A stretch of 64,000 nt of DNA, taken from positions 5,890,001 through 5,954,000 of the forward strand of contig NZ_CP107834.1 in assembly GCF_036346595.1 (NCBI RefSeq), read 5' to 3'. Each line of letters opens with the position of its first letter. The stretch's first letter is position 1. This stretch comes from Streptomyces sp. NBC_00525. GTDB lineage: Bacteria; Actinomycetota; Actinomycetes; Streptomycetales; Streptomycetaceae. The translations under genes were made by a program, and so were the position numbers. Below are positions 17,800 to 38,529 of this stretch, piece by piece. Below the pieces are notes generated by a model. That model searched no databases, was not told the DNA's origin, and saw nothing but the letters and a program-made list of their open reading frames with translations.

Positions 17800-18065
17800 G
17801 TCGCCGCGCACCTTGAGGCCCACCCTGCATGACGTCCCCCATCAGCGCCCGCCGCAGCTCGACGAGATCCTCGAAGACGCCGCGCAGGCAGGGTTGGCCA
17901 TGTCCTGCGAAGACCGCACCGGAAGCCTCCCGGCCACCCTCGCCGCATCCAAGCCGGACGGCCGCTTCCTGGAGCACGTGGCCGAAAGACCACCAGCCCC
18001 GGGTCGACGCCTTCCTCGAACGACTGCCCGAGGTGCTCAACAGCTCTCCGCGCGAGCGGAGGTGA
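17800..18065 (+). pseudogene. Class I SAM methyltransferase remnant
   Basis: Two pieces of an O-methyltransferase-like protein can be read in different frames. The first (about 17830-17980) contains GLAMSCEDRTGSLPATLAASKP then DGRFLE, the stretch just before the SAM-binding GxGxG. The second (about 17985-18060) contains KDHQPRVDAFLERLPEVL, which in such proteins lies near the C-terminus. The SAM-binding core between them is missing. The end of the second piece runs into an orphan CRISPR repeat at 18041. Family assignment is by eye. Confidence 0.5.
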
Positions 18066-18069
18066 GGGG
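18041..18069 (+). repeat. Orphan CRISPR repeat, inverted relative to array 1
   Basis: Bases 18044-18066 match the array repeat in reverse-complement orientation over 23 consecutive positions; three bases at each end differ. It lies ~87 nt beyond the leader-distal end of array 1 and points the opposite way. Confidence 0.75.
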
Positions 18070-18155
18070 GCGGCGGCTTCCATTTCACAGGGGTCGCATG
18101 AGTTCTCCCCTCGCGCGGACAGAGTTCCCCCGGCGTCAAGTCGTCCGATGCGAGA

Positions 18156-18977
18156 CGGCTCACCTCCGCTCGCGCGGAGAGGACCAACCGGGCCCGCTCG
18201 AACGGGTCGCGCATCGCGGCTCACCTCCGCTCGCGCGGAGAGGACTGCACGTACGGCGACGGCGGCGAGGCGGTCGGCGGCTCACCTCCGCTCGCGCGGA
18301 GAGGACCGCTCCGGCTCGACGGCGGCGGCGAACTGGGCCGGCTCACCTCCGCTCGCGCGGAGAGGACCCGCCCCTGTCCAGTCCGCCGTGTTCGCGATGC
18401 GGCTCACCTCCGCTCGCGCGGAGAGGACGCCGCTGGACTGGTCCCGCATCGAAGTCCATGCGGCTCACCTCCGCTCGCGCGGAGAGGACGGCGGGACGGC
18501 GTTGCCGATCTGCTCAAACTGCGGCTCACCTCCGCTCGCGCGGAGAGGACGGAGTAGATCTCGGCGATCGGGAAGACGCCGCCGGCTCACCTCCGCTCGC
18601 GCGGAGAGGACTTGCCGGTTCTGTCTCGCCCAAATCGGCTGTACGGCTCACCTCCGCTCGCGCCGAGAGGACAAGGCGCGCACCAAGGCCAGCTACCGGG
18701 GCCTCGGCTCACCTCCGCTCGCGCGGAGAGGACAGGCCGACACTGCGTCGGTGCGCGTGTGTCTCCGGCTCACCTCCGCTCGCGCGGAGAGGACATTCCG
18801 AACCGGGGTGGCCTGCTGCCGGCGTACGGCTCACCTCCGCTCGCGCGGAGAGGACCCCAACCGGGGGGCGTAGCGGCCCCGGAGCTTCGGCTCACCTCCG
18901 CTCGCGCGGAGAGGACGATCCGCTTGTACCGGTCTTTCCGGATGAGCGCGGCTCACCTCCGCTCGCGCGGAGAGGAC
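18156..18977 (-). CRISPR. Type I-E CRISPR array 1: 14 repeats, 13 spacers
   Basis: Repeats of 29 nt start at 18156 and recur every 61 nt exactly (18156, 18217, 18278 ... 18949), so every spacer is 32 nt. On the + strand each repeat begins CGGCTCACC and ends GCGGAGAGGAC; the central CTCCGC/GCGGAG stem with a TCGC loop is the Cas6e hairpin. The crRNA sense strand is minus, by comparison with other I-E repeats and because cas2 lies on the high-coordinate side. One repeat (18644) has a G-to-C change in the stem. A decayed repeat at 18097-18125 (about 16 of 29 positions) marks the old, leader-distal end. Protein-like ORFs across the array are artefacts. Confidence 0.98.
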
Positions 18978-19020
18978 CCTCTTTGACCTGGCCCGCTAGA
19001 GGCGCTTTGCCATTTCTTGA
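18978..19020 (-). promoter_or_regulatory. CRISPR array 1 leader, overlapping cas2 3' end
   Basis: Only 18 nt separate the cas2 stop (18996) from the first repeat. The same block, with few changes, precedes array 2 at 34689-34731. The conserved stretch therefore includes the end of cas2 and is the likely leader with integration signals. The array promoter must lie within cas2 or the array is read through from the cas operon. Confidence 0.6.
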
Positions 19021-19307
19021 CTTTCGCGTTTGAAGGCGATCAGGGTGAGGCCGTCGAAGTCGAGGGGTTCGCGGCGTCGAGTTCCTGCTGTTCGTAGTTG
19101 GAAGCCTTGCTCGTTGTCGGCGGGGTGGGCGAGTACGGCGAGGCCGTCGTGGGTGCAGGCGGTGACGGCTGCCCAGAGTTCGTCGCGGACGCGGGCTGAG
19201 ACGGTGCCGACGTAGAGCTCGGGGGTGACTTCGAGGAGCCAGCGGGTGAGGGCGCCGCGTAGGTGGTCGGGTACGGCCGTCGCGGAGATGACGATCATCG
19301 AGGACAT
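18996..19307 (-). CDS. cas2e: CRISPR-associated endoribonuclease Cas2, type I-E
   Basis: Adaptation subunit that bridges Cas1 dimers during spacer integration, 103 aa. The core MIVISATAVPDHLRGALTRWL starts the ferredoxin-like fold, GTVSARVRDELW is the conserved I-E motif, and the protein ends LIAFKRESQEMAKRL. ATG 19307 is chosen since AAGGG lies eight bases upstream; ATG 19298 three codons later is an alternative. It follows cas1 after 28 nt and is the last cas gene before array 1. Confidence 0.93.
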   Translation of the reverse strand: MSSMIVISATAVPDHLRGALTRWLLEVTPELYVGTVSARVRDELWAAVTACTHDGLAVLAHPADNEQGFQLRTAGTRRREPLDFDGLTLIAFKRESQEMAKRL

Positions 19308-19335: not shown

Positions 19336-20328
19336 TCATGGCTGTGTCCCATGGTTGATGCCGGCGGGTACGGAACCGGATACCGGGTCCCAGAGGTCGA
19401 CCATCTGTTCTTCGGGGTCGGGTCCTTCATAGGTGCGGCTCGGGTCGAGGAGCTGCTGGATGTCAGTGACGATGCGCGGGAGGAGTTGGAAGAGGCGGAG
19501 TTCGTGGCGAAAGGAGCGGCGTGCTTCGGCTTCGGGGTTGGGTGATGCGTGGAGGGAGAAGGCGAGGGGGATGGTGAGTTCGGCCTTGTAGAGGTCGGCG
19601 ATGTCGTAGACGAATGCCTGTTGGTTGCCGTTGTGGACGAAGCCGAGGGCGGGGGAGCAGCCGAGGGCGGTGATGGCGGCGTGGACGATGCCGTAGAGGC
19701 AGGTATTGGCGGAGGAGAGGGCGAGGTTGACAGGGTCTTGTGTGTCCCAGGAGGCGGGGTCGTAGGCGCGTCGGAAGCGGCCGATTTTGTATTGGCGGGC
19801 AAGTAGTTGGTAGTGGGCTTTGACGCGTTGGCCTTCCATGCCGCGGAGTTTGTCGAGGGTGGTTCCGTCGGTGGCTGTGCCGTTGCCGAAGCGGAGTTCG
19901 TACATGGCTTGGGCGATGGCGAGGCGGTGAGTGTCCTTGGTCCAGGCGCGGGCCTGACGTTCGAGCCAGGTGGTGGTGAGGGATTCGGGGACGGCTGCGG
20001 AGTAGCAGCGGACGCCGCCTGAGCCTGTGGTGAGGACAGTGGTGCCGTTGCGGGCGAAGGTGGTGAGGGCGCGGGCGGTGATGGAGGTGCCGGGGCCGAG
20101 CAGGGCGCAGCTGAGGGCGGCGGTGGGGAGGTAGACGGTTTCTGTGCCGCGTTGTTCAGTGGTGACTTCTGCGCAGACGCCGGTGTCGTCCTGGTGGATG
20201 CGGACGATGTCGAGGTAGAGGAAGGAGAGGGAGTCGGCGATGCGGGGGAGCATGGCGACGGTGGGTGCGGCGAGTTTGCGCCGGGCGTTGCTGGTGCTGA
20301 GTGGCTTGGCGGTGGGGCGTGGGGTCAT
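19336..20328 (-). CDS. cas1e: CRISPR-associated integrase Cas1, type I-E
   Basis: Spacer integrase, 330 aa. The three metal-binding residues are visible: Glu in GMEGQRVKAHY, His in LGFVHNGNQ and Asp in FVYDIADLYK. The preceding ALSSANTCLYGIVHAAI helix is conserved in the family. The start overlaps the cas6e stop by ATGA (20325-20328). The C-terminus contains QQLLDPSRTYEGPDPEE, the piece that also survives as a stub in locus B. Confidence 0.95.
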   Translation of the reverse strand: MTPRPTAKPLSTSNARRKLAAPTVAMLPRIADSLSFLYLDIVRIHQDDTGVCAEVTTEQRGTETVYLPTAALSCALLGPGTSITARALTTFARNGTTVLTTGSGGVRCYSAAVPESLTTTWLERQARAWTKDTHRLAIAQAMYELRFGNGTATDGTTLDKLRGMEGQRVKAHYQLLARQYKIGRFRRAYDPASWDTQDPVNLALSSANTCLYGIVHAAITALGCSPALGFVHNGNQQAFVYDIADLYKAELTIPLAFSLHASPNPEAEARRSFRHELRLFQLLPRIVTDIQQLLDPSRTYEGPDPEEQMVDLWDPVSGSVPAGINHGTQP

Positions 20329-20987
20329 TGGGGCTGCCTCGCGGGGGCGATGCTGAGGAGGCCGCAGCCGTATGCCTTGCCGCGTCCGATGCCGTTGAGG
20401 ACGGCTTTGCGGAGCAGGTCGGTGTCGATGATGGCGGCGGTGCCGTCGAACTGGGTGCGGGCGTGGCGGATGCGTTGGGGTGGGGCGCCGTCAGGTTGGC
20501 GGCTTCCTTGGATGGTGTCGAGGGGCTGGGAGTGGTGGGTGAGGGGTTTGATTCCGCTGTTGTCGGCTTGGCGGAGCCACCACTCGTCTGCGGCGGTGCC
20601 GGTGAGGGGGACGACGGGCGGGAGGTTGTAGAGGGCGCGGGTGGTGGCGCCGGGTTTGCGGACGGGGCTGGCGACGCAGCGGTAGCGGACGGTGAGTCCG
20701 GGGCGGATGGCGTCGATGAGTGCGTCGAGAGGGCGGGCGAGGGCGGTGCCGTAGCCGTCGGGGAGGCGGCTGGTGTCGGATTCGTGGGTGGACTGGATGA
20801 GCAGGTGGGGGCCTGCGGGGGTGTCTTCGGTGCGGAAGAGGACGCCGAAGCGGGCGCGGGGGTCGGGGCCGGCGTCGGAGGGGAACAGGCTCATGACGCG
20901 GCGGTGCATGCCGATGGCTCCGGCGAGGTCACGGCGGGCTTCGCGGGAGCGGGTGTCGGGGACGATGCGGGTGAGCCAGAGAGTCAT
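20325..20987 (-). CDS. cas6e: Cas6e crRNA endoribonuclease
   Basis: RAMP-fold nuclease that cuts the repeat hairpin and stays in Cascade, 220 aa. It begins MTLWLTRIVPD, carries an early HRRVMSLFP segment with the catalytic-His region, and ends with the glycine-rich GIGRGKAYGCGLLSIAP loop typical of Cas6e. ATG 20987 overlaps the cas5e stop (ATGA); a longer frame to 21428 lies inside cas5e and is not used. Confidence 0.94.
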   Translation of the reverse strand: MTLWLTRIVPDTRSREARRDLAGAIGMHRRVMSLFPSDAGPDPRARFGVLFRTEDTPAGPHLLIQSTHESDTSRLPDGYGTALARPLDALIDAIRPGLTVRYRCVASPVRKPGATTRALYNLPPVVPLTGTAADEWWLRQADNSGIKPLTHHSQPLDTIQGSRQPDGAPPQRIRHARTQFDGTAAIIDTDLLRKAVLNGIGRGKAYGCGLLSIAPARQPQ

Positions 20988-21853
20988 TGCCGGTTCCCTT
21001 CCGGGGTGTTCAGTTCGTGCTCGAGGTAGTGGCTCAGGGCGGTGAGCTGGTCGGTGCCGAATCCTGCGAACTGGGAGTGGGGCAGGAGCAGGGAGCGCCG
21101 GTAGAGGGGACGGGCGCGGTAGGTGCGTTTGGTGGGGTGGTAGGTGAGGGGTTGATCGTTGAGTTCGCTGGAGGGGTGGGAGCCGTCCTCGCTGATGGTG
21201 CTGACCATGCGCTCGTGTACCGGCAGGTTGGTCAGCGGTCGGTCGGCGAGGAACTCCACGGGCCGGTCTTCGTCGGCCTGTCCCCGGGCGGGGTGGGCGG
21301 CGAGCGGCAGGTGAATGAGGTGATGCAGCGCGTCGTTGCTCTGCCCGAGGAGGAGGGGGCCCTCTGGTGGGCAGGAGCGGCGGCCCAGATGCAGCGGCCA
21401 CCGGGGGGCGCGCAGGGCGCCGGCGCACAGGTCGAGGAAGGCGGCGTTTTCGGCGTTGTGCTGGGGGAGTGTGAGGGCGGCGGTGAAGGCGGCGTCGGCG
21501 AGGTAGTAGCGGTGGGTGAGGAGAGTGCCGGTGTCTCCGGGGCGTTTTTTGCCTTCGGCGGTGGTGACGGTGGCTTTGGCGGGGAGGCCGCCGCCGACGG
21601 TGTGGAGGTCGCGCAGCATGACGCCGGGGCGGTCGGCGCGCACGGTGAGGTTCAGTCGGGTGAGGTCGTCGATGGGCTGGCCGCGGTGGCGGCCGAGGGC
21701 GGAGGCGAGCATGCCGATGATGCCGGAGCGGGTGGGGAAGGCGGCGGTGTCGCGTTCGTTGAAGTGGCTGTGCAGGCCCCAGGACTGGAGGGGGCCGGTC
21801 AGCCGGAGCAGGAGCCCGGCCTCCGGGGCAGGGACGGTGGTCCGTGTGGTCAT
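20984..21853 (-). CDS. cas5e: Cas5e Cascade subunit
   Basis: RAMP protein that caps the 5' handle of the crRNA, 289 aa. The N-terminal LLLRLTGPLQSWG and the FPTRSGIIGMLASALGR motif are diagnostic of Cas5e (CasD). It overlaps cas7e by ATGA at its start and cas6e by ATGA at its end. The segment with tract LPLAAHPARGQ is longer than in enteric CasD, as is common in actinobacterial members. Confidence 0.95.
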   Translation of the reverse strand: MTTRTTVPAPEAGLLLRLTGPLQSWGLHSHFNERDTAAFPTRSGIIGMLASALGRHRGQPIDDLTRLNLTVRADRPGVMLRDLHTVGGGLPAKATVTTAEGKKRPGDTGTLLTHRYYLADAAFTAALTLPQHNAENAAFLDLCAGALRAPRWPLHLGRRSCPPEGPLLLGQSNDALHHLIHLPLAAHPARGQADEDRPVEFLADRPLTNLPVHERMVSTISEDGSHPSSELNDQPLTYHPTKRTYRARPLYRRSLLLPHSQFAGFGTDQLTALSHYLEHELNTPEGNRQ

Positions 21854-23034
21854 GCCGCGTCTCCGGCAGACTGCCCGGCCAGTGCGGTGTCGAGGGCGGC
21901 CTTGATCAGGGAGTCGAAGCCGGCCTGCCGGGTGCCGAGGGCATCGAGGCCCTTCACGTCGATGCCTGCCCAGCCCGACTGGAGGATGGCGTCGGTGCCC
22001 AGGAGGCCGTTCGCGGTTTCCGCGTATTGGGCGAGGACGGTGCGTGAGGGGTCGGAGAACCCGCCATGGCCAGCGGCGAGGACGGGGCGTTCGAACGCGG
22101 CGGCGTAGGAGAGGGGGCGGTCGGCGCGTACGGAGATGTGGGCGAGGTCGGGGATGGTGTGGGGTGCGGTGGAGTTCTTCTTCGCCTGCGGCAGGGACAG
22201 AACGAACGCACTGAGGAAGGCGGCGGTCAGTTCGCGCAGTTCGTCGGGGTCATGACCGATGTTGGCGGCGAGGTCGCGCAGGTCGATGGTGGCGTAGCGG
22301 TAGAAGGTTCCGGCGCTGAACTCGGCGTGCCCCATGTGGCCGCTGCCGCTCTGGTCGCCCCAGTGGGCGGTGATGTCGTCGACGGCGGAGAAGTAGTCGA
22401 GTTCGACGTCGGTTTCGTGGGTGGTCAGGGCGTGGGCGACCTGGACGGCTCCGTCGACGCCGGCGTTGTCGACTTCGGCGAGCATGCGGCCGAAGACGTT
22501 GATGACGCCGTTGCGGGAACGCAGCACCGCCTCTACCCGGTCGGCGGGCAGGATGCTCTTGTCGGCCGGCTTCTTGATGTCCTTGGCGCCCTCCAGCACC
22601 GTGCGGTGCCTTTCGGCGAGGGCTGCGAGTTCGGTCACGGCGGACTCGGGGACGTAGACCATCGCGTTGGTGAGGACCTTGTTCGGCACGCTCTGCTTGG
22701 CGTCCTTGGGGTCCTTGGCGAGTTCGAACTTGATGGGGCTGGCAGCCGCGATGTGGGCGCCGGCCCGCTCCGCGAGGTCCTGCGGCCAGCCGTGTTCCTC
22801 GGCCAGGACCCGGGTGACCCGCTCCCCGATGCGGCGGGTGCGCAGGGCCGCCTGGCCGATGCGGTCCTCGAAAACTGTGCGGACGGCGCGCTTCCAGGAC
22901 TGGCTGCTGACCCGGGTCCGCATCACGTTGCCGTACTGGACGGTTTTGACCGAGTTCGTGTCATCCCGGTTCAGGTTGGCAAAGGGAATGCTCTGGATGA
23001 TGTGGATGTCGATGAAACGCGCGGGCATAGCCAT
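21850..23034 (-). CDS. cas7e: Cas7e Cascade backbone subunit
   Basis: Backbone protein that coats the crRNA spacer, 394 aa. FIDIHIIQSIPFANLNRDD at the N-terminus and RTRVSSQSWKRAVR are the Cas7e (CasC) signatures. ATG 23034 has AGGAGTCACC upstream. A 90-nt gap separates it from cse2, the only sizable gap in the operon. Confidence 0.95.
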   Translation of the reverse strand: MAMPARFIDIHIIQSIPFANLNRDDTNSVKTVQYGNVMRTRVSSQSWKRAVRTVFEDRIGQAALRTRRIGERVTRVLAEEHGWPQDLAERAGAHIAAASPIKFELAKDPKDAKQSVPNKVLTNAMVYVPESAVTELAALAERHRTVLEGAKDIKKPADKSILPADRVEAVLRSRNGVINVFGRMLAEVDNAGVDGAVQVAHALTTHETDVELDYFSAVDDITAHWGDQSGSGHMGHAEFSAGTFYRYATIDLRDLAANIGHDPDELRELTAAFLSAFVLSLPQAKKNSTAPHTIPDLAHISVRADRPLSYAAAFERPVLAAGHGGFSDPSRTVLAQYAETANGLLGTDAILQSGWAGIDVKGLDALGTRQAGFDSLIKAALDTALAGQSAGDAA

Positions 23035-23124: not shown

Positions 23125-23871
23125 TCAGGGCCCTTCAGGGGGCTGAGGTGCGTCGGTGGTCAGTTCCTGCTCGTCGGCCTGGTCCGCCTGCCGCGTCAGA
23201 TCCCTGTTCCGCTGGCGGTAGAAGTCCTGGAGCCAGGCGCGGGAGATACGCCCGGAGTGCCGGCGCCAGTTGCTGAGATCGTGGATGAGCTGGGCCCAGT
23301 CGATGTCCACCCCCACCGAGCACAGGTATCCGACGGTGGCGGGGAGGTGCCGGTGGAGTCCGTTGACGCTCTGCCGGGTGAGCAGGTTCAGACGGCTCTC
23401 CGCCGTGCCCACCCGCATCTCCTTTTCGCGGCCGGGCCCCTCGGTCACGGCGGTGGCGAGCGCGGCCCCAAGGCTGGTGCCCCGCCAGGCTCGTCCGCCA
23501 GGGGCCTGCTCGGCATCCTGCTGCTGTTGGATGTCAGGAGCCTTGCCGGGCGAGTTCAGGGCGCTGCGGGGCTGCGCGGCGATCATCGCAGCGACTGCGT
23601 AATAGGCCCGCTCCACATCCGCGGAGCGTGAATCCGGGAGCCAGGGCGCAACCAAGCGGTGCATGCGCCGGACCGAGTCGAGGTCTTTGCGCAGCCCGCT
23701 GCGCAGCGCGCTACGGGCACCCGGGTCTTCCTTGCAGAGTTGGACGACCCAGTTGGCGAACGCGCGTGAACGCCCCGCATTGGCCCCCGTGCTCTGTCGC
23801 GGAATCGGCAGGGCCGCAGGGCCGGCCGATTCCGTGGCCTCTGTAGTGGCTGGCGGGGGAGTGATGGTCAT
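23125..23871 (-). CDS. cse2: Cse2 (CasB) Cascade small subunit
   Basis: Helical small subunit that stabilises the displaced DNA strand, 248 aa, somewhat long for the family. Family-like helices are AFANWVVQLCKEDPGARSALR near residue 35 and WAQLIHDLSNWRRHSGRI near the C-terminus. A linker with PDIQQQQDAEQ is a low-complexity insertion. ATG 23871 overlaps the cse1 stop. Confidence 0.9.
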   Translation of the reverse strand: MTITPPPATTEATESAGPAALPIPRQSTGANAGRSRAFANWVVQLCKEDPGARSALRSGLRKDLDSVRRMHRLVAPWLPDSRSADVERAYYAVAAMIAAQPRSALNSPGKAPDIQQQQDAEQAPGGRAWRGTSLGAALATAVTEGPGREKEMRVGTAESRLNLLTRQSVNGLHRHLPATVGYLCSVGVDIDWAQLIHDLSNWRRHSGRISRAWLQDFYRQRNRDLTRQADQADEQELTTDAPQPPEGP

Positions 23872-25481
23872 GCGGTGGGCTCCTTGGTCATGTCACGGGG
23901 GGCGGGCATGGCACTTCGGTTTTTCGGTGGTCCGCCGTAGAGCTCGGCCCGGGCCTGCGAGACGGCTTTCGCACCGCGCAGCGTCCGGGTGACCGGCGCG
24001 GTGACCGTGTCGTACGCCTGCTCGGCCAGACGAACGAACGCCCGCCGGGTGGCCACCCGGTCGAAGCCGCCGTCCGGGATGCCGCCGGTGCGGTCCAGGA
24101 GACGGAAGCGTGCCCAGAACTCCGCTTCGGCGCGTGGCCAGTAGCGCGCGCCGGCCTGTGCTGTCCAGGCAGCACCGTCGGCCTTGGCATCGTTCACATA
24201 CGTGGCCCAGGCCCGCTTCACTGCCCGCTCCAGGCGCCGACCGTACAGTTCTCCGAGCTGGCGCAGCCGGGCGACGGCGGGGACGGTGCGGGCGTCGTTG
24301 GCTTCGGCGAATCCGAGCACAGCCGGCGTGCTCGCGTCGATGAACTGGGTGTCCTTGGCCTGGCCTTCCTGGTCGAAGCCCAGCGCCCGTACCCGCAGGT
24401 CCTCGGAAACCTCCGCAGCGCTGTGGAAGACGCGCGGCTGCTGCGGGTGCGCGTTGCCAGCGGGCGGGTTCCGGAGCAGGAGCGCGTCCAGGTCCCGCCA
24501 CAAGGCCCGGCCGGCGTCGGCGGGCCGCGGGTAGCGGTTGCCCTGCTGACTGGTCTGCCAGATGAGGTAGTCGTCCTCGCGCGGCATCCGCTCCCCGCGG
24601 TAGGCCCAGGTGATGTACGCGTCGCGTACATGGGTGCCGTCCTCGTCCGGGACGAGGAGTAGTGCGTGCTGGGATCGGCAGGTGTGCCGGGAACGCGGCC
24701 CCGCCGACGCGCGCGGCGGCCGGTCGGGGTCGGGCAGCTCTTCCTGCTCCCACGGACACAGGTCCTCCCCGCCACGGACACTGGCCTCCGGTGGTACGAG
24801 CCCGGCGAGCAGCGTTTCGAACAGGGAGGAGCCCTCGGGGTGGTAGGACAGGGCCGTCCGCAGCGGCCCAGCGGTGGCGCTGGCGCTCTTGACCCCGCTC
24901 ACCTCTCGGGCCGAACAGCGCCCGGAGGGGCCGTAGTAGTGCCAGACCAGGAGGTTGAGGAAGGCTTCGGACGAGGTGGGCGGCTCGGCCGCGGTGTCCC
25001 TGTCGTGCCGGAACCAGGAGTGGTTGTTACCCGAGGGGCGGGTAACAACAAGCTTGTTGACCCCCGCGGTCTTCGAGGCATCACACTGCTCCACGAGGCG
25101 GGGATCCTGCATCCACGGCCGGCCGCCTGGGGCGAACAAGAAGAAGCGGTCCTCGAACTGGGCGAAGTAGGCGTCGACCTTCGTCGCCTGAAGCCCGCCC
25201 TCGTCCAGGACATCCAGCCGGCGCTCGTCCCAGTCGCTCGCCGGACCTTGTTCGGTCAGGTCGGCGACCCGCGCGGTGATCGCGTACAGGACCCGCAACA
25301 GGGCCGCGTGCGCGGGGGCGTCGGCGATGGCCAGGGTCTCGATGTCGTGGCTGCGCAGCAGGAGTTCGCGGAATCCGACCCGGTCGGGGAGCCGGGCGGC
25401 CGAACTGGCCGGTGGGGTGTCGGGTTTCCAACGTACGGGGATGCACGGTTGGTCGATCAGGTTGTAGGTGCCCGTCGGCAT
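23868..25481 (-). CDS. cse1: Cse1 (Cas8e) Cascade large subunit
   Basis: Large subunit that recognises the PAM and recruits Cas3, 537 aa. It starts with the family signature YNLIDQPCIPVRW and has ETLAIADAPAHAALLRVLYAIT, then GGRPWMQDP and a central LLVWHYYGPSGRCS. The start at ATG 25481 fits the usual N-terminus exactly. It is the first intact gene of the operon; a cas3 remnant lies upstream where cas3 normally stands. Confidence 0.95.
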   Translation of the reverse strand: MPTGTYNLIDQPCIPVRWKPDTPPASSAARLPDRVGFRELLLRSHDIETLAIADAPAHAALLRVLYAITARVADLTEQGPASDWDERRLDVLDEGGLQATKVDAYFAQFEDRFFLFAPGGRPWMQDPRLVEQCDASKTAGVNKLVVTRPSGNNHSWFRHDRDTAAEPPTSSEAFLNLLVWHYYGPSGRCSAREVSGVKSASATAGPLRTALSYHPEGSSLFETLLAGLVPPEASVRGGEDLCPWEQEELPDPDRPPRASAGPRSRHTCRSQHALLLVPDEDGTHVRDAYITWAYRGERMPREDDYLIWQTSQQGNRYPRPADAGRALWRDLDALLLRNPPAGNAHPQQPRVFHSAAEVSEDLRVRALGFDQEGQAKDTQFIDASTPAVLGFAEANDARTVPAVARLRQLGELYGRRLERAVKRAWATYVNDAKADGAAWTAQAGARYWPRAEAEFWARFRLLDRTGGIPDGGFDRVATRRAFVRLAEQAYDTVTAPVTRTLRGAKAVSQARAELYGGPPKNRSAMPAPRDMTKEPTA

Positions 25482-25663: not shown

Positions 25664-25997
25664 TTGAGTTCAAGTTCGAACCAGTGACTGCTCGACCACC
25701 TGCGTCGCCGCCGGCGCGGATGCCGGACGAACCGCTGCCGGCGCGTCGGCCGGGTGCGGCGTACCGAGATCCCCTGCGCAGTCGGCTGTCGTGGCCCCCT
25801 GGACACTCGCCGGTGCCGGGAACGAAGCGGCCTCACCCCGCGAGGGCGCGCGCGGCAAGACCGGGTAAGGCCGCCCAGATGCCCATGAGATGACAGGTCA
25901 ACGAGTACGTCCGTGTCGGCCCGTGCTCCTTCCCCCGCATCCGCGCATCCAGAACACAACGGTCTAAGGCTTCTGCGCCGCTCTTCTTCACGATCAC
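25660..25997 (-). pseudogene. cas3: cas3 remnant with two internal deletions
   Basis: Aligning by eye with intact Cas3 at 35468-38344: the first ~45 codons survive (GTG start, then ARMRGKEHG and LTCHLMGIW versus ARMWGKERG and VICHLLDTG). They join directly to AALPGLAAR, matching AAFPELAAR of helicase domain 2. After a frameshift comes ATQVVEQSL, identical to the intact protein, then a second jump to the last codons (FELELK versus VGLETE). HD residues beyond the first His, Walker A and the DEAH box are all gone, so it cannot act as a nuclease-helicase. Confidence 0.85.
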
Positions 25998-26058
25998 AGA
26001 GATAGCAGCCCCCACTGACAGCAGCGCCAAATCCGGCAAACAGAGGGAGCAGCCTGGC

Positions 26059-26084
26059 ATGGCCCGTACACTCGCTGCGCGATG
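26059..26084 (-). promoter_or_regulatory. Conserved block upstream of cas3 remnant
   Basis: A 26-bp block that agrees at 25 positions with 38406-38431, in the same place upstream of the intact cas3. Conservation in both copies outside coding sequence suggests the cas3 promoter or an operator. No clear -35/-10 pair is evident. Confidence 0.5.
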
Positions 26085-26161
26085 ATGACTGCACAGGACG
26101 CGAAGCGCGACGGAATGGCAAAGGAAATATAAAGGGGCTGGGTAAGGGCAGGTGGCGAAAG

Positions 26162-26190
26162 GTGCTTACTGCGCGCGCGGAGGTGAGCCG
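26162..26190 (+). repeat. Orphan CRISPR repeat upstream of cas3 remnant
   Basis: Matches the array repeat (crRNA sense on the + strand, pointing away from the cas genes) at 24 of 29 positions. It continues into a 10-bp inverted repeat (26183-26192/26194-26203), whose second arm restarts a repeat in the other orientation. The position relative to the conserved cas3 upstream block equals that of the orphan repeat at 38501. Confidence 0.75.
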
Positions 26191-27193: not shown

Positions 27194-27256
27194 CAGACGG
27201 TGCCAGGTGGTTGTTCGGCACGGTGAGCGAGGAGCCTGGTCGTGTGGAGGCCACCT

Positions 27257-28440: not shown

Positions 28441-28647
28441 ACGGAGCCGATCGTGTTGCCCTTGCACCCTTCGGTGGCGGTGCAGCCTTTGCAATCGGCG
28501 CAATGGTCCTGAGTCAGGTCGACCAGTAAGGTCACACCGGCGTCGGTGAGGCAGTTGAACCAAATCGCCGTGCTGGCTGGCCACGACCAGTTTGACGCTG
28601 ACCGAGCCCATTGCTGTTCGAATGGTGAATGGCAAGGCGGCCACCAC
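28416..28647 (-). pseudogene. Frameshifted small cysteine-rich protein
   Basis: One frame gives an N-terminal half (FTIRTAMGSVSVKLVVASQHGDLVQ) and the next frame a C-terminal half with CADCKGCTATEGCKGN. Joined, they would form a ~75-residue protein with four closely spaced Cys, which could bind zinc or an iron-sulfur cluster. The last codons are encoded by the orphan repeat. I do not recognise the family. Nothing else is seen between 28316 and 28785. Confidence 0.35.
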
Positions 28648-28785
28648 CCGCTCATCGAGGCGGGCACATCCGGTCGAGGATGAACTCCGTAGTCACCAGT
28701 TGCCAGCATGGGGCAGAGACCTTGTTGAACCGCCAGACTGGCTTTATCGAGCAGTAGTGGCTCTGGTCCACTTCGTGTGGCGCGG

Positions 28786-29205: not shown

Positions 29206-29267
29206 GTACGGCTCCTGGTATCGCTCTCGCGGACGGAACCAGCATTCCAGCAGACACTGACACGCGC

Positions 29268-30180: not shown

Positions 30181-30372
30181 CAACCGCCATGACACAAAGA
30201 TCGACAGTCACCCCCTGCGTACGCGCCCACAGAAAGTGGACCAGAGCCGCAGTAGTGACGTCGCTTGTCGATGGGTTTGGGAGGCGCCATGTTCCACGGA
30301 TGGGTGATGTGGACGAGTTTGGGAGGCACCGGGGTTCTTGCCAGGGCAGCATCGGGATGCTCCTGGTGAAAG

Positions 30373-32020
30373 GTGCTGGTCATGCCGCGGCTGTCGAAGG
30401 TCGAGCTGTACGCGGCGATCCGGCGTGACCACCGTGGCGGCATATCGATGCGGGAGCTTGAGCGTAAGCACGGCGTGACGTGGCGGACGGTGCGGAAGTC
30501 GTTGGACTCGTCCTGGCCGGAGCCGCGTAAGAAGCTGCCGCCGCGGCCGACCGGAGTGGACCGCCACAAGCCGGTGATCGACGAGATCCTGCGGGCGGAC
30601 CTGGACGCGCCGCGCAAGCAGCGGCACACGGTCACCCGCATCTTCCACCGGCTGGTCGAGGAACACGGCGCCGACGTCTCCTATGGGATGGTCCGCTACT
30701 ACGTCGCGGCCCGGAAGCCCGAGGTCCTGGTCGAGTCGGGCAAGGCCCCGCTGGAGGCGTTCGTCCCGCAGACCCACCAGCCCGGTCACGAGGCGGAGGT
30801 CGACTTCGGCGACGTCACGATTCGCCTCGCCGGCGAGCTGGTGACCTGCTATCTCTTCTCCTTCCGCCTGTCGTATTCGGGCAAGGCCGTCCACCGCGTG
30901 TTCGCCTCCTGCGGCCAGGAGGCGTTCTTCGAAGGCCACGTCTACGCGCTGCGGACGCTGGGCGGGGTCCCGCGGACCAAGGTCCGCTACGACAACCTCA
31001 AGGCCGCTGTCGCCCGCGTGCTCGGGCTGAGCCGGGCGAGGGTGGAGGCGGACCGGTGGATCGCTTTCAAGTCGCACTACGGCATCGAGAGCTTCTACTG
31101 CCGCCCGGGCATCGAGGGCGCCCACGAGAAGGGCGGCGTCGAGGGCCAGATCGGATACTTCCGGCGCAACCACTTCGTCCCGGTCCCCGAGGTGTCCTCG
31201 CTCGCCGAGCTGAACGAGATGGCGAGCAGTGGGACCGGCAGGACGACGCCCGCCGGATCGGCTCCAGGTCCCGGACCATCGCCGAGGACTTCGCGCTCGA
31301 ACGACCGCTGCTGATGCCGTTGCCGGAGGAACCGTTCGAGACCGGGCGGCTGTTAACCCCTCGGGTCGACCGCTACGGCCAGATTCCGGTCCGCACGAAC
31401 CGCTACTCGGTCCCCATCCGGCTGATCGGCAAGCGCGTGCGGGTCATCCTTCACGCCTCTCACCTGGTGGTTTACGACCAGAACGTGGAAGTGGCCCGGC
31501 ACGAGCGGTTGATCGCCAAAGGCGCCGTCCGCCTGGACCTGGACCACTACCTGGAGGTCGTGGTCCGCAAGCCCGGCGCCTTCCCCGGCTCGACTGTTTT
31601 TCGAACAGGCCCGTTCGGCCAGCAAGTTCACCCCGGTGCACGACGCCTGGTGGACCCAGGCCGTGAAGATCCACGACGAGTGGGACGGCACCCGCGCGCT
31701 CATCGAGGTGCTGCTGCTCGGACGCCACATGCCGCACGAACATGTCGTCGCCGGCCTGGCCGCAGCCCTGCGGGCTGGGGCCCTGACCGCGGACGCGGTC
31801 GCGCTGGAGGCCCGCAAGGCCGCCCAGGCGGAGACCGAGCCCGCACCGGATGCCCCGGGCCCTCGGCCAGCCGTCTGGGACAGTGACGTCGCTGCACGAG
31901 TGGCGCCTGGCGCATCTTCCGCCGGACACCAGGCCGCTGCCCTCGGTGTCTCACTACGACCAGTTGCTCCGACGCCGCCGCACCAGCGGCAGCGGCCACC
32001 GTGAGGGAGAAGCGAAGTGA
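30373..32020 (+). pseudogene. istA: IS21 family transposase istA with three frameshifts
   Basis: The first 310 codons (HTH segment GISMRELERKHGVTWRTVRKSL; DDE part EAEVDFGDVTIRL, then KVRYDNLKAAVARVL and EGAHEKGGVEGQIGYFRRN with the catalytic acids) run to about 31225. The frame shifts near 31225, near 31600 (to MHDAWWTQAVKIHDEWDGTRALIEVLLLGRH) and near 31865 (to SLHEWRLAHLPPDTRPL, ending at 32020). Each continuation is recognisable istA, so the gene is a decayed but nearly full-length copy. Confidence 0.88.
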
Positions 32021-32814
32021 CCATGCCCCGACAGCGAGGGTTGACCGAGCAGGCCGCCGACGCCGCGATCGACTCCGCCTGCCGCTCGCTGCGGCTGCGG
32101 TCGATCCGCAACGAGTTCTCCGACATCGCCGACCGGGCGATGAAGGACCAGACGACCTACCGCGGCTTCCTCGCCGAGCTGCTGATGGCCGAGTGCGACG
32201 ACCGGGCCCGCCGCAGGTCGGAGAGGCGGATCAAAGCAGCTGGCTTCCCGCGGGAGAAGTCCCTGCGTTCCTTCGACTTCGACGCCAACCCGAACATCGA
32301 CGCTGCCACCATCCACACGCTCGCCAGCTGCGAGTGGATCAAGAAGAGTCAACCGCTCTGCCTGATCGGCGACTCCGGCACCGGCAAGTCCCACATGCTC
32401 ATCGCTCTGGGCACCGAGGCCGCGATGAAGGGCTACCAAGTGCGCTACACGCTCGCGACGAAGCTGGTCAATGAGCTGGTCGAGGCCGCGGACGAGAAGC
32501 AGCTGAACAAGACGATCGCCCGCTACGGCCGTGTCGATCTGCTCTGCATCGACGAACTCGGATACATGGAACTCGACCGGCATGGCGCCGAGCTCCTCTT
32601 CCAAGTACTGACCGAACGCGAGGAGAAGAACAGCGTCGCGATCGCTTCCAACGAGTCCTTCGGAGGCTGGACCAAGACCTTCACCGACTCCCGCCTCTGC
32701 GCGGCCATCGTCGACCGACTGACCTTCAACGGCACCATCATCGAGACCGGAACCGACTCCTACCACCTCGCCAGCACCCGAGCACGGACCGAACAACCCG
32801 CCCAGGCTGGCTGA
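32017..32814 (+). CDS. istB: IS21 family ATPase IstB
   Basis: Transposition helper ATPase (AAA+, DnaC-like) of 265 aa, intact. Walker A is GDSGTGKSH and Walker B LLCIDELGYME; RLTFNGTIIETGTDSYHL is the usual C-terminus. GTG 32017 overlaps the istA stop; ATG 32023 is an alternative start. With istA broken, it can serve only elements elsewhere, if any. Confidence 0.92.
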   Translation: MTMPRQRGLTEQAADAAIDSACRSLRLRSIRNEFSDIADRAMKDQTTYRGFLAELLMAECDDRARRRSERRIKAAGFPREKSLRSFDFDANPNIDAATIHTLASCEWIKKSQPLCLIGDSGTGKSHMLIALGTEAAMKGYQVRYTLATKLVNELVEAADEKQLNKTIARYGRVDLLCIDELGYMELDRHGAELLFQVLTEREEKNSVAIASNESFGGWTKTFTDSRLCAAIVDRLTFNGTIIETGTDSYHLASTRARTEQPAQAG

Positions 32815-33501: not shown

Positions 33502-34688
33502 CGGCTCACCTCCGCTCGCACGGAGAGGACCAGTCCCGGCCCGAGCAAAAACGGACGCGGGCGGCTCACCTCCGCTCGCGCGGAGAGGACCTCATCGCGG
33601 GCGCCGCCGCCCTGTACGCGTCCGGCTCACCTCCGCTCGCGCGGAGAGGACTACTCGACCTGTCGTTCGGTGGCCAGCGGGCCCGGCTCACCTCCGCTCG
33701 CGCGGAGAGAACCTCGGCGTGTCCGTCGGCCGATTGCGCTCCAGCGGCTCACCTCCGCTCGCGCGGAGAGGACCGGCAGTAGCAGGCGTGGACGGAGCAC
33801 CCGCCCGGCTCACCTCCGCTCGCGCGGAGAGGACGACGGAGGAGGCGGCCCGTGCTTGAGCAACTCCGGCTCACCTCCGCTCGCGCGGAGAGGACGCGAA
33901 GGCCGGCGCGCTGTGGCAGATGGAGACCGGCTCACCTCCGCTCGCGCGGAGAGGACCACAAGGTCTTCTCGACGAAGGAGAGCTACCACGGCTCACCTCC
34001 GCTCGCGCGGAGAGGACAGCTGCTCGTTGTCCGCTCGCAGCTCCGCGATCGGCTCACCTCCGCTCGCGCGGAGAGGACCGCGGCGCCGCTGCCGGTGGAG
34101 TCGATGGCGTCGGCTCACCTCCGCTCGCGCGGAGAGGACCGGTCCTGTGCCCAGTCCCGGACGACGGAGAACGGCTCACCTCCGCTCGCGCGGAGAGGAC
34201 TCCTTGACCTCCGCCAGGACGGACCCGCTGTGCGGCTCACCTCCGCTCGCGCGGAGAGGACTCGAGGACCGACTGCAGGCCGGTCGACGCCGACGGCTCA
34301 CCTCCGCTCGCGTGGAGAGGACAGCCATCGCAGCTACCGGGCGACGACCACGACCGGCTCACCTCCGCTCGCGCGGAGAGGACGGCGGGAGGATCAGAGT
34401 GCGGTAGGAGCTGTACGGCTCACCTCCGCTCGCGCGGAGAGGACGCCAGCGACACCATCAGGGCCGACGCCGGGTCCGGCTCACCTCCGCTCGCGCGGAG
34501 AGGACCGGGCCGGAGGTGATGCGGACGGCCTCGGTGACGGCTCACCTCCGCTCGCGCGGAGAGGACGTGCCTAACCGGCGCGGTCCCGGCGCGCGGGTCG
34601 GCTCACCTCCGCTCGCGCGGAGAGGACAGCGGATGTACCGTCATGCATGGGTCGTGCTCCGGCTCACCTCCGCTCGCGCGGAGAGGAC
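33502..34688 (-). CRISPR. Type I-E CRISPR array 2: 20 repeats, 19 spacers
   Basis: Same 29-nt repeat as array 1, starting at 33502, 33562 and then every 61 nt to 34660. The first spacer is 31 nt and the rest are 32. Variant repeats are the leader-distal one (33502, G to A in the loop), 33684 (GAGAGAAC end) and 34294 (C to T in the stem). crRNA sense is the minus strand, with the leader on the high-coordinate side next to the cas2 stub. I saw no spacer shared with array 1. Confidence 0.98.
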
Positions 34689-34731
34689 CCTCTTTGACCT
34701 GGCCTGTTAGAGGGGCTTTGCCGTTTCTTGG
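34689..34731 (-). promoter_or_regulatory. CRISPR array 2 leader
   Basis: Nearly identical to the block beside array 1 (18978-19020), including the last codons of cas2 (now part of a pseudogene). It gives array 2 the same integration context, so the single Cas1-Cas2 pair encoded in locus A could serve both arrays. Confidence 0.6.
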
Positions 34732-35297
34732 CTTTTGCGTTTGAAGGTGATCAGGGTGAGGCCGTTGAAGTCGAGGGGTTCGCGGCGTCGGGTTCCTGCT
34801 GTGTAGCTGGAAGCCCTGTTCGTTGTCGGCGGGGTGGGCGAGGCCGTCGTGGGTGCAGGCGGTGACGGCTGCCCATAGTTTGTCGCGGACTCGTGTGGAG
34901 ACGGTGCTGACGTAAAGCCCGAGGGGGACTTGGAGGGGGCCGGCGGGTGAGGGTGTCTCGTAGGTGCGGCTCGGGTTGAGGAGTTGCTGGGTTGGACGGC
35001 CCTGAAGCCGGCCTTCGCCCAGCACGTTGTCGCCGGTGCTCCTCTCAGTCGCCTGCCGGACTTTGTTCGGTCAGGTCGGCGGTCTGCGGTGATTGCGTAC
35101 AGGACCCGGAACGGAGCCGCGTGCGCGGGGGTGTCGGCGACGGCGAAGGGCTCGATGTCGTACTTGCGCAGCGGGAGTTCGCGGGATCTGGCCCGGTAGG
35201 GGAGCCCGGCTACCGTGCCGGCCGGTGGGGTGTCGGGTTTCCAGCGTACGGGGATGCACGGTTCGTCGATCAGGTTGTAGGCGCCCGTCGGCATGAA
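34707..35297 (-). pseudogene. Fused stubs of cse1, cas1 and cas2
   Basis: Read on the minus strand from 35297: the first ~85 codons of cse1 (GAYNLIDEPCIPVRWKPDTP, AVADTPAHAAPFRVLYAIT), with a frameshift after DRRPD, join at LGEGRLQ (cse1 has LDEGGLQ) to a cas1 tail (QLLNPSRTYETPS; cas1 has QLLDPSRTYEGPD). This joins to a cas2 tail (LYVSTVSTRVRDKLWAAVTACTHDGL) with a small deletion and a frameshift. All of cse2, cas7e, cas5e, cas6e and most of cas1 are missing. It is a deletion derivative of the locus A layout. Confidence 0.88.
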
Positions 35298-35449: not shown

Positions 35450-35471
35450 GTGATCAGGATGTGAAGATTAC
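35450..35471 (-). promoter_or_regulatory. Dyad at the end of cas3, counterpart of 25642-25663
   Basis: GTGATC (35450-35455) N10 GATTAC (35466-35471): the locus A dyad with one mismatch, overlapping the cas3 stop codon. It precedes the cse1 stub. Confidence 0.45.
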
Positions 35472-38344
35472 TCGGTCTCGAGGCCGACCTCGGAAATCGA
35501 GAGCGTCGAACGCCCGTGCCGACAGCTCCATCTGCCATCGGTGGGAGTCATCCGCAGCAAGACGAGCCCGCGCAGCGAAGGATGCGTTCCCCAACTCTTG
35601 GGAACTGCACTGTCGGCCACCTCGTCACGCAGCCAGCGCCCCGGCACGGGAGCGACGCGTCGTGCGACGTCGGCCAACTGGATCGCCGTCAGCCCGTCGC
35701 GGCCCCCGGTCGGCGCCGGGAGGCTGCCTTCGGGGTCGAGGGTGAATGCGCCGCCGGGCTGTTCGTAGAGGCAGAGCACCTGACCGGTATCAGCACCGAG
35801 CCGGGTCGTGAGCAGCTCTTCGCTCACTCCGGCCTCCCGAAGTGACAGCTTGCTCAGATCCCCGCGGACGTCAGCCGGTGCGCAGATCCCCGTCCAGGCA
35901 GCCATGTGCCGTTCGGCCGCCTCACGGGCCAGACGCTCCTCGTCGAGCCGGGCCAGTTCCGCACGAACCGCCTCGTCCGCTTTGTCGACGAAGTCCTCGT
36001 CGTACACCGCATCCACCAGCCGCTGCACATCATCCGGCACCGCGATCCCCTGCCCGGCGAGTTCCTCAAGCAGCCGCGAGGTGCGACGAAGCAGCGACGC
36101 GTCGTAGACGGTGCCCCACGAACGAGGCACCGAGGCGCCCTGCTCTTCCGGCAGGGGATCGAGCACCACAAGCACCGGCTCGTCCTCGGTGGCAGCCCAC
36201 GCTGGGCGCCCCAACCCACCTCTGGCGTGACGGCGTGCACGGCCCGCACGTTGCAACAGCTGCGCCAGCGGCGCCAGGTCCGACACCACCAGATCGAAAT
36301 CCAGGTCCAGTGACTGCTCGACCACCTGTGTCGCCACCAGCACGGACGCCGGACGCACCGCGACCGGCTCGTCGGACGGGACCGGCTTGCCGTAGGCCCG
36401 CTCACAATCGGCTGTGATCGATGCCCGTACGTCTGCCGGGTACCGGGAATGAAGCAGCCGCAGCCCACCCGGGCGCGCGGCAAGCTCGGGGAAAGCCGCC
36501 CGGAGGTCTTTATACGTCTGCTGGGCCTCGGCCACGGTCGTACAGCACACCAGTGCCGTACCACCCACCTCGGCGACCGGGGCCAGCACCTCGCGAAGTG
36601 CCGCTCTACGCCCGCCCTCGCGGACCCGCGAGCCAACCGGCTCCGTCGTGTCCCACGACACCAGCCTGCGGGACACCATCAGCGTCCTGGCCCTATTGCT
36701 CAGCGTGCCCCGGACAGCCGAGACCTCACCCGAGCCTCCGCTCGCGAACAACCAGCCCGGATAGCGCGGAGCCACAGCAGACGGCTCGTAGAACCCGGCA
36801 CCGCGCCGGTAGGCGTCCACCAGGGAACCGGCCGAACGCCCCGTCAGCGTGGCCGACAACAGCACGACCGGCGCGCGCATCGCTCCCAGCCATTCCAGCA
36901 ACCGAAGGAGCAGCTGGTGCATCCATGGCCCGTAGGCGTGGGCTTCATCCACGACGAACACCTTGTCCGACAGGCCGAACAGCCGCAGAAAGTTGTAGCG
37001 CAGGGGCAGCACCGCGCTCAGCGCCTGGTCGATGGTGCCGACACCCAGCGGAGCGAGCAGGCCGCGCTTCGGACCGCGCAACCACGCATCCGCCTCCACA
37101 ACCGTCGACGCGCCCGCACTCACAACATCAGCCTGCCCAACAACATCACTGGACACGCCCCCCTCCCCACTGCCCGGCGAACTCAGCCAGGCCATGGAGT
37201 GCAGCAGCATCAACGCCCGCTCCCCGGACAACGCCTGGGAAGCGAAAGCCTCCACACGGGGCAGCATCGCATCCGCCGTACCCATCGTCGGCAGCGCGAA
37301 ATACAGTCCCCGGCACCCTGCCGCGCGCCCCAATACCGAGGCGGCGAACAAGGCCCCCTCGGTTTTCCCGTCACCGGTCGGAGCCGTCACCAGCACCAGC
37401 CCAGGACCGTGCTCACGAACCAAACGGGGAAGATACTCGGCGAGATCCCGCTGCAGACTGTTCGGCTCAAAGGGGAACATGGCCGCAAAATCCTGCGAAG
37501 AAAACCGCGCCCTCCCCAGCCGCGCCGAACCCACGAGCTTCGGCGCAGCCCGCAACGCACCTTGCCAGTGCGCATCCACCTGCGCCGGCGTGCCTGACCA
37601 GCCGGAGGCCGGCAGGCGAGCCTTGATGGCCGAAGTCTGGCTCGCCAGCCAGTCGGCGACCACCACCAACCCGGCCACGATCACGGCCAGTCCGGCCGTA
37701 AGCCCCCCGGCAGGAACCGCAAAGGCTCCCATCACCCGCTGTACTTCCGCAAAGTGCGCCTGCCGCTGATCCGCCCATCCAGCCCCGCCCAGACCGGCGT
37801 TGTACGCACTGGCCTGCGCCACCTCCTTGGACTTCAGTACCGCTCCGAACGAACCATGGTGACCGCCCAGGAGCTGTGCGACCTGCTGGCTCACTGCACG
37901 GTGCATCCGACGCCGGTCACCCGGATAGCCAGCCTCTTCGAGCAACTGGAACAGGGACCAATGGGAGGCGATCTCGTGACGGAACTGCTTCTCCTGCTCC
38001 GCACCAGGCGCGCTCGCGTAAGCGGCGTCCGCGCGCAACAGTTCGTAGCAACTGGGCACCTGCGCCTGGAACGGAGGAGTGATCTTGCCGATGTCGTGCA
38101 ACGCGGCCCAGAAGGAAACCACCACGCGTGCCTCCGACACACTCAGACCAAGCGCGCTTGCCACCGCCTCCCGGGTCTCCCGGCTCAGGACGACATCCCA
38201 GAGCTCTCCGAACACGGCACCCGTATCCAGCAGATGACAGATCACCGGGTACGGCCGAGGCAGCCCGCGTTCCTTCCCCCACATCCGCGCTTCCAAAGGA
38301 CAGCCCCCCAGGGCACCTGCCATATCGCTCATATCCACGAACAC
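35468..38344 (-). CDS. cas3: CRISPR-associated nuclease-helicase Cas3
   Basis: Effector recruited by Cascade to nick and degrade target DNA, 958 aa. The N-terminal HD nuclease domain has ICHLLDT (His37), ALHDIGKITPPFQ (His83-Asp84) and LGGHHGSFG. The helicase has Walker A in TAPTGDGKTEGAL, FALPTMGTADAM, DEAH box in VVDEAHAYGPW, LLSATLTG, and domain-2 motif VATQVVEQSLDLDFDL. GTG 38344 is chosen because GGGGGG lies ~10 nt upstream and because the same codon position is kept in the locus A remnant; ATG 38332 is an alternative. The much longer in-frame extension to 39178 is noncoding. It is the only complete cas3 in the window. Confidence 0.94.
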   Translation of the reverse strand: MFVDMSDMAGALGGCPLEARMWGKERGLPRPYPVICHLLDTGAVFGELWDVVLSRETREAVASALGLSVSEARVVVSFWAALHDIGKITPPFQAQVPSCYELLRADAAYASAPGAEQEKQFRHEIASHWSLFQLLEEAGYPGDRRRMHRAVSQQVAQLLGGHHGSFGAVLKSKEVAQASAYNAGLGGAGWADQRQAHFAEVQRVMGAFAVPAGGLTAGLAVIVAGLVVVADWLASQTSAIKARLPASGWSGTPAQVDAHWQGALRAAPKLVGSARLGRARFSSQDFAAMFPFEPNSLQRDLAEYLPRLVREHGPGLVLVTAPTGDGKTEGALFAASVLGRAAGCRGLYFALPTMGTADAMLPRVEAFASQALSGERALMLLHSMAWLSSPGSGEGGVSSDVVGQADVVSAGASTVVEADAWLRGPKRGLLAPLGVGTIDQALSAVLPLRYNFLRLFGLSDKVFVVDEAHAYGPWMHQLLLRLLEWLGAMRAPVVLLSATLTGRSAGSLVDAYRRGAGFYEPSAVAPRYPGWLFASGGSGEVSAVRGTLSNRARTLMVSRRLVSWDTTEPVGSRVREGGRRAALREVLAPVAEVGGTALVCCTTVAEAQQTYKDLRAAFPELAARPGGLRLLHSRYPADVRASITADCERAYGKPVPSDEPVAVRPASVLVATQVVEQSLDLDFDLVVSDLAPLAQLLQRAGRARRHARGGLGRPAWAATEDEPVLVVLDPLPEEQGASVPRSWGTVYDASLLRRTSRLLEELAGQGIAVPDDVQRLVDAVYDEDFVDKADEAVRAELARLDEERLAREAAERHMAAWTGICAPADVRGDLSKLSLREAGVSEELLTTRLGADTGQVLCLYEQPGGAFTLDPEGSLPAPTGGRDGLTAIQLADVARRVAPVPGRWLRDEVADSAVPKSWGTHPSLRGLVLLRMTPTDGRWSCRHGRSTLSISEVGLETE

Positions 38345-38405
38345 TGAGATAGCACCCCCCAGTGACAGCGGGCCCAAATCCACACAACAGCGGGTGGCGC
38401 AAGGG

Positions 38406-38431
38406 ATGGGCCGTACACTCGCTGCGCGATG
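38406..38431 (-). promoter_or_regulatory. Conserved block upstream of intact cas3
   Basis: Counterpart of 26059-26084 with one mismatch, 62 nt upstream of the cas3 start. The flanks differ between copies, so the block itself is under some constraint or is recently shared. Candidate cas3 promoter or operator. Confidence 0.5.
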
Positions 38432-38500
38432 TCTGCGAGAGAGAGCATGATGCGCCGTCATTCCAGGCAAACGGCTTTTCGTACGGGCAGGGGGCGAAGG

Positions 38501-38529
38501 GTCCACTCCGCGCGAGCGGAGGTGAGCCG
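38501..38529 (+). repeat. Orphan CRISPR repeat upstream of intact cas3
   Basis: Matches the consensus repeat at 28 of 29 positions (T5 to A), in the orientation opposite to the arrays, i.e. reading away from cas3. No second repeat follows at ~61 nt. It stands about 70 nt beyond the conserved cas3 upstream block, as in locus A, with a similar preceding run (GGGCAGG then GGCGAAGG). Confidence 0.85.

Follow-up and report, generated by a model that had tools for sequence, protein, structure and literature searches.

Analysis of a 64,000-nucleotide stretch of a 7.1-Mb genome (G000:C1:5890001-5954000, here called the window) revealed two loci, A (18.2 to 26.2 kb) and B (33.5 to 38.5 kb), which by gene content are a type I-E CRISPR-Cas system in two pieces. 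The losses are complementary: cas3 is gone from A, and cse1 to cas2 are gone from B. From the comparisons described below, we consider it likely that an old locus was duplicated, that the copies decayed in a complementary manner, and that both have been kept and work together as one system. The anatomy of the two loci, their sister relation, the early complementary losses, continued selection, and the clean repeats shared by the two arrays are established.

Gene content of loci A and B

Read on the minus strand, locus A comprises a cas3 remnant, cse1, cse2, cas7, cas5, cas6e, cas1, cas2, and an array (18156-18977), and locus B comprises an intact cas3, a fused cse1/cas1/cas2 stub, and an array (33502-34688) (Table 1). 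The type I-E signature set of cse1, cse2, cas7e, cas5e, cas6e, cas1e, and cas2e was recognized in locus A by NCBIfam, Pfam, and PADLOC matches. Within the window, a type I-E Cas3 with HD nuclease and helicase motifs is intact in locus B and present as a remnant in locus A. In agreement with the first-pass annotation, locus A kept its array and all Cascade and adaptation genes together with a dead cas3: the seven genes are intact, and cas3 carries stops and two large deletions. The gene is reduced to ~0.4 kb, with a stop in each of the three frames, and has no counterparts of B 38227-36504 and B 36307-35487, which corresponds to deletions of ~1.7 and ~0.8 kb measured on the coordinates of B. 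The spacer between cas3 and cse1 is still present in A.

TABLE 1 Features of loci A and B, of the DNA between and beside them, and of the blocks that they share (window coordinates)
Feature	Position	Strand	Remarks
CRISPR array A	18156..18977	-	14 repeats (29 nt), 13 spacers (32 nt); leader end next to cas2 (high coordinate)
cas2e, locus A	18996..19298	-	Intact, 100 aa
cas1e, locus A	19336..20328	-	Intact, 330 aa
cas6e, locus A	20325..20987	-	Intact, 220 aa
cas5e, locus A	20984..21853	-	Intact
cas7e, locus A	21850..23034	-	Intact
cse2 (cas11e), locus A	23125..23871	-	Intact
cse1 (cas8e), locus A	23868..25481	-	Intact, 537 aa
cas3 remnant, locus A	25679..26096	-	Two large deletions; 5' part and one internal piece remain
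Lone repeat, locus A	26162..26190	+	Degenerate
Interval between the loci	26308..32814	mixed	Mobile-element genes
IS4/IS5-type transposase	26308-27177	+	Between loci
2-Hydroxyacid dehydrogenase gene	27257-28315	-	Between loci
ISL3-like fragment	29268-30101	-	Between loci
Integrase-core fragment	30373-31314	+	Between loci; below Pfam cut-off
istB, IS21 type	32017-32814	+	Between loci
CRISPR array B	33502..34688	-	20 repeats, 19 spacers
cas1 3' end and cas2 stub, locus B	34691..34990	-	Internal deletion, frame-shifting indel
cse1 5'-end stub, locus B	35001..35294	-	
cas3, locus B	35468..38461	-	Intact, 997 aa counted from upstream ATG
Lone repeat, locus B	38501..38529	+	
Right flank of B	39139..45770		Also right of the single locus in G335 (synteny, 80-85% identity)
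Block, cas2 3' end	A 18980-19290 = B 34691-34986		84%
Block, cas1 3' end	A 19413-19459 = B 34944-34990		81%; B side overlaps the cas2 block, boundary uncertain
Block, cse1 5' end and cas3-cse1 spacer	A 25187-25679 = B 35001-35487		79-80%
Block, middle of cas3	A 25681-25879 = B 36307-36504		76%
Block, cas3 5' end, upstream region, lone repeat	A 25883-26190 = B 38227-38529		70%

Six Cas3 motifs (HD, HHG, GDGKT, DEAH, SAT, and QRAGR) were sought in the Cas3 of locus B, and all were present. By comparison with relatives, GTG at 38338 or ATG at 38332 is the more likely start of this gene. Its description as the only intact cas3 holds for the window; in the genome, a second complete type I-E system is located at 5.43-5.44 Mb. 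Locus B had also been described as lacking the region from the middle of cse1 to the middle of cas1. The loss was confirmed, and its bounds were revised: it extends from about codon 100 of cse1 to near the end of cas1, without a counterpart of A 25187-19459. The first part of cas2 and another small segment between cas1 and cas2 are missing as well. The list of lost genes was also too short, as the cas2 remnant of B carries a frame-shifting indel and this gene is dead too. At 34705-35294 (minus strand), a frame is open from the start of cse1 across the stub as far as the cas2 end, which is in frame, and a chimeric protein would result if it were expressed. Since the DNA has a G+C content of ~69%, a frame open across this stub needs no function.

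Undivided loci in related Streptomyces

The nearest named relatives by Cas3 are Streptomyces, and undivided loci exist among relatives, as had been predicted. Twelve relative loci were fetched with flanks. In 10 of them, cas3 was found together with cse1 to cas6, and 9 of these also contained cas1; L054 showed no cas1 match within the stretch examined, and L051 and L053 are cut by contig ends. The sister loci were L048 (G335), L049 (= L060; G100, Streptomyces sp. ADI96-02), L050 (G355), L051 (= L090; G114, S. albidochromogenes), and L061 (S. alfalfae). The Streptomyces sister loci have the same arrangement, with Cas3 73-76% identical to that of B, and Cse1 of L048, L049, L050, and L051 is 81-82% identical to that of A. 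L048, L049, and L050 differ from A and B in having the long cas3-to-cas1 matches in one locus. G335, G100, G355, and G114 gave one Cse1 match per genome (three candidates scored each).

Repeats of a divergent array were found just upstream of cas3 in all 10 relatives aligned, and a repeat with at most 8 mismatches was found within 450 bases upstream of cas3 in 30 of 40 loci. The lone repeats of A and B are read as leftovers of this divergent array, which on this sequence evidence was lost in both copies with one repeat left in each; this loss is not complementary. The lone repeats were also considered as a regulatory mini-CRISPR guide, and this reading was dropped because the aligned relatives hold several array repeats at the same place.

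For S. avermitilis, PMC4762764 describes a type I-E locus with eight cas genes, oppositely read arrays on both sides, and a cas3 outside the cse1-cas2 operon. In these features, it is among the closest known counterparts of A and B. It is one undivided locus, whereas A and B are two copies with complementary losses and upstream arrays down to one repeat. Since cas3 is its own transcription unit in S. avermitilis, according to the same paper, the loss of cas3 need not have silenced the Cascade genes of A.

Loci A and B are sister copies

Comparison by blastn, used in place of a dot plot, revealed that A and B are homologous in the same orientation outside the repeats, at five collinear blocks (47 to 497 aligned columns, 70-84% identity). 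In a tree of the shared segments (20 rows: A, B, and 18 relatives), A and B are sisters (100/99), and the next branch is formed by six relatives (99/97). This grouping and the codon-position test described below support the duplication and complementary degeneration proposed in the first-pass annotation.

The sequence comparisons make copying inside the genome the likely origin of the two loci. A possible but less probable alternative, which concerns the origin only and not the function, is separate arrival, with one locus coming from an unsampled close relative and complementary losses occurring afterwards. The divergence between A and B (79% identity over 1167 columns, path 0.30) is consistent with this alternative, as the path is not much shorter than the paths of 0.42-0.53 to the four nearest relatives. 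Further points in its favor come from the flanks. No duplicated flanking DNA was found beside A or B by blastn, so that none appears to have been doubled together with the locus. When 40 of the 1589-1953 candidates per genome were scored, the left flank of A (window 2-18 kb) matched four relatives at scattered places only, and comparison of the whole window with ~57 kb spanning the loci in G335, G355, and G100 listed no match to the left of array A for these genomes. The comparisons yielded no left edge for the duplication. Against separate arrival, A and B are closest to each other among the loci compared, and B adjoins a flank in common with G335 while A lies beside B. The block at 39139-45770 adjoins both B and the G335 locus; judged from this flank, B is therefore at a site in common with G335. 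In G100 and G355, the block is present but apart from their type I-E loci.

Early losses and continued selection on the intact partners

Changes unique to A or B were counted at columns with agreement among at least 75% of up to six relatives. Such columns favor conserved sites, equally for both copies, and the coding sequence of cas3 was taken to begin at 38333. At codon positions 1 and 2, the changes in one copy amounted to 31/180 in A and 7/180 in B for cas3, to 4/170 in A and 18/170 in B for cse1, and to 1/147 in A and 13/147 in B for cas2. Pooled, the stubs showed 62/497 changes versus 53/448 in non-coding DNA (p 0.84). Their intact partners showed 12/497 changes, five times slower than the stubs (p 7e-10). 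Third positions, which are outside the test, showed 8/63 in each copy for cas3, 1/58 in A and 6/58 in B for cse1, and 3/64 in A and 5/64 in B for cas2.

As the stubs changed at the full non-coding rate, these counts indicate that both losses are early and that the stubs have been unconstrained for the greater part of the time that has passed since separation of the copies. Slow change in the intact partners, together with stubs at the non-coding rate, indicates that selection continued past the losses: the Cascade and adaptation genes of A were selected without cas3, and the cas3 of B was selected without Cascade. The Cas3 of B showed a dN/dS of 0.17-0.21 versus four relatives, with dS near 1. 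When 10% neutral decay of cas3 was simulated with two mutation spectra, the 2000 copies contained a mean of 5.6-8 stops and were stop-free in 0 and 0.25% of cases. Joint working is the simplest cause of continued selection on both halves, and by these measures A and B are probably still one working system.

Repeats and spacers of the two arrays

Arrays A and B have one consensus repeat and no spacers in common. The 29-nt repeats (n = 34) are palindromic and clean in both arrays, and 31 of the 32 spacers are 32 nt long (one has 31 nt). Mismatches to the consensus affected 3 of 580 positions in the repeats of array B; the B-only changes in non-coding DNA amounted to 31/224. Clean repeats in array B are as expected if fresh repeats continued to be added by the Cas1-Cas2 of A or if conversion occurs between the arrays. 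Past the distal end of array A, visual inspection showed an in-register degenerate repeat at 18096-18124, and a 23-nt perfect repeat piece in inverted orientation is located farther out at 18044-18066. To check whether selection has kept a leader within the 3' end of cas2 in B, conservation near the array was determined. Four-fold sites in the last ten cas2 codons showed a conservation of 0.76 (n = 34) versus 0.33-0.78 in the rest of cas2, which is no clear excess, and B-only changes were 6/99 near the array versus 13/127 farther off. The search of Rfam gave no match at the gathering threshold.

The 32 spacers were joined and searched against phages, with 14 matching records, and against plasmids, with 45 matching records of which 30 were listed; 8 of these 59 records were examined in detail. 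In these eight records, foreign matches with at most 5 mismatches were found for 4 of the 13 spacers of array A. Spacer A5 is identical (32/32, 0 mismatches, neighbor AAC) to sequences of phages Eklok and AxeJC, which suggests uptake not long ago. Spacer A8 matches phage ZL12 (3 mismatches) and an S. anulatus plasmid (2 mismatches), with AAG as the neighbor in both; spacer A3 matches an S. cellulosae plasmid (3 mismatches, neighbor AAG), and spacer A9 matches two plasmids (3 and 5 mismatches, neighbors TGG and CGG). The occurrence of the type I-E neighbor AAG is thus mixed. None of the 19 spacers of array B gave a match with at most 5 mismatches in the eight records. Around spacer B19, a gapped 91% match to an S. 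californicus plasmid was found, without an ungapped match of at most 6 mismatches. Seven of the 32 spacers (B1, B2, B4, B5, B7, B8, and A1) were compared with viral contigs with five positions left free, and no match was obtained.

Spacer B3 (34506-34537) is identical over 32/32 positions to the organism's own chromosome at G000:C1:4085741-4085772, in an ATP-grasp ligase-like gene. The 5' flank of this site is GCG and not AAG, which may spare the site; low activity would be another reading of the self-match. Self-targeting by B3 as proof of inactivity is weakened because its 32/32 match has no AAG neighbor.

A distant type I-E system in the same genome

An intact cas3 or a second Cascade elsewhere in the genome had been named as what would make the A-B pairing irrelevant. 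Both were found ~0.47 Mb from A and B, in a second complete type I-E system (L014, G000:C1:5431-5443 kb) with cas3, cse1, cse2, cas7, cas5, cas6e, cas1, cas2, and ~56 repeats of different sequence, but this system is distant in sequence. Its identity to A and B is 32-41% for Cas3, 26% for Cse1, 34% for Cas7, 47% for Cas5, and 44-45% for Cas1. Judged by these values, the distant system makes the pairing less certain rather than irrelevant; since it is present, the organism need not depend on A and B.

It is conceivable, though unlikely, that A and B are both non-working, that the system at 5.43 Mb provides immunity, and that the intact genes of A and B are merely not broken yet. The completeness of the distant system and its array of ~56 repeats would fit such a state, as would the self-match of one B spacer and the lack of a foreign target for array B in the phage and plasmid records examined and, for six B spacers, in viral contigs. 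The codon counts speak against it, as the stubs have run at the full non-coding rate since early losses while the surviving genes changed five times more slowly at positions 1 and 2. The clean repeats of both arrays and the suggested recent uptake of A5 from a phage also argue against two dying loci.

A putative DNA-damage promoter upstream of cas3

The motif TTGTCRGTG precedes cas3 exactly in 24 of 40 relatives and with at most one mismatch in 36 of 40 (loci L060-L099); control stretches of the same loci contained it in 13/800 and 47/800 cases, respectively. TA is present eight bases past the motif in 31 of the 40 relatives, and none of these 31 has the final T of TannnT. The consensus of the mycobacterial RecA-independent DNA-damage promoter is tTGTCRgtg-8 nt-TannnT according to PMC5656591, and PafBC acts via this promoter type according to PMC6789036. 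The sequence upstream of cas3 is like the first part of this consensus and lacks the final T in the relatives. Its resemblance to part of the PafBC promoter hints at DNA-damage control of cas3. In the more distant loci L034-L047 (L046 left out, n = 13), the motif was exact in 1 and had at most one mismatch in 3. No paper that links the cas3 of Streptomyces CRISPR-Cas to DNA damage and mitomycin was found in the open-access literature searched.

Within the window, the nine-base motif has one mismatch at the dead cas3 of A (26003-26021, minus strand) and two at the live cas3 of B (38346-38368, minus strand). Upstream of the latter, ~ten bases of the neighboring conserved stretch are missing; given these departures, expression of the cas3 of B may be impaired. 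The cas3 of the distant system has the whole promoter consensus, including the final T (L014:8120).

The split could also be a stable, selected state of a locus subfunctionalized through duplication, with one Cascade and one Cas1-Cas2 pair for two arrays and a Cas3 that has departed from its ancestral, perhaps DNA-damage-controlled, promoter, but we regard this as distinctly unlikely, in part since the motif of the relatives has no final T. If it were true, target binding and target destruction would be under separate control.

Proposed joint function of loci A and B

The ancestor would have been a Streptomyces type I-E locus like those of living relatives, with a divergent array, cas3, cse1-cse2-cas7-cas5-cas6-cas1-cas2, and an array. 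In the lineage of this genome, the locus would have given rise to two copies; soon after, copy A would have lost cas3, and copy B would have lost the Cascade and adaptation genes through internal deletions. Mobile elements now lie between the copies, and the two halves would since have been kept as one system. The arrays have the same repeat, and the Cas6 of A would process the transcripts of both. The Cascade of A, loaded with guides of both arrays, would recruit Cas3 made from B, and the Cas1-Cas2 of A would insert new spacers into both arrays. Expression, recruitment of Cas3 in trans, and joint adaptation are what we infer, and trans complementation is the best inference from the pattern of selection.

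Cross-talk with the 5.43-Mb system, in which the Cascade of A would use the Cas3 of that system or the Cas3 of B would serve its Cascade, is very unlikely. Both systems are type I-E and share one cell, and the identities of Cas5 (47%) and Cas1 (44-45%) speak for it; however, a Cas3 would be expected to work with the Cse1 of its own system, and the low identities of Cse1, Cas7, and Cas3 and the different repeats argue against an exchange. Cascade without Cas3 is able to act as a repressor, but a use in which the Cascade of A just binds and represses DNA, with the cas3 of B kept for another purpose, is highly improbable, as cas1, cas2, and a clean array are kept in A and the nuclease and helicase motifs are kept in the Cas3 of B.

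Descriptions of CRISPR-Cas loci mostly concern gain, loss, or exchange of the whole locus. The sequence evidence here points to a multigene immune locus that passed through duplication and complementary loss, with selection acting on both halves during the decay of the stubs. Arrays or effector loci that stand alone can borrow Cas proteins in trans; as in these cases, a locus short of cas genes would here rely on a cognate locus elsewhere. Such dependence is usually one-way, whereas A and B each hold what the other lost. The pair would thus offer a natural test of a Cas3 that serves the Cascade of another locus and of one Cas1-Cas2 pair that serves two arrays, and annotators should discard neither locus as broken. 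A search of the open-access literature by title and start of abstract found no duplicated, complementarily decayed CRISPR locus.

Survey of the genus

The Cse1 of A was compared with 392 genomes of the genus, with three candidates scored per genome, so that a short stub could be missed. No second fragment of this Cse1 lineage was found in the 16 other genomes that matched with at least 55% identity (three candidates scored each). In G224, two Cse1 pieces adjoin and look like one gene, and in G156, the second match is 35% identical. In G300, G091, G068, and G384, Cse1 had two matches of equal or almost equal score on one contig, far apart and on opposite strands, as if each terminal inverted repeat of a linear chromosome contained its own copy of a type I-E locus.
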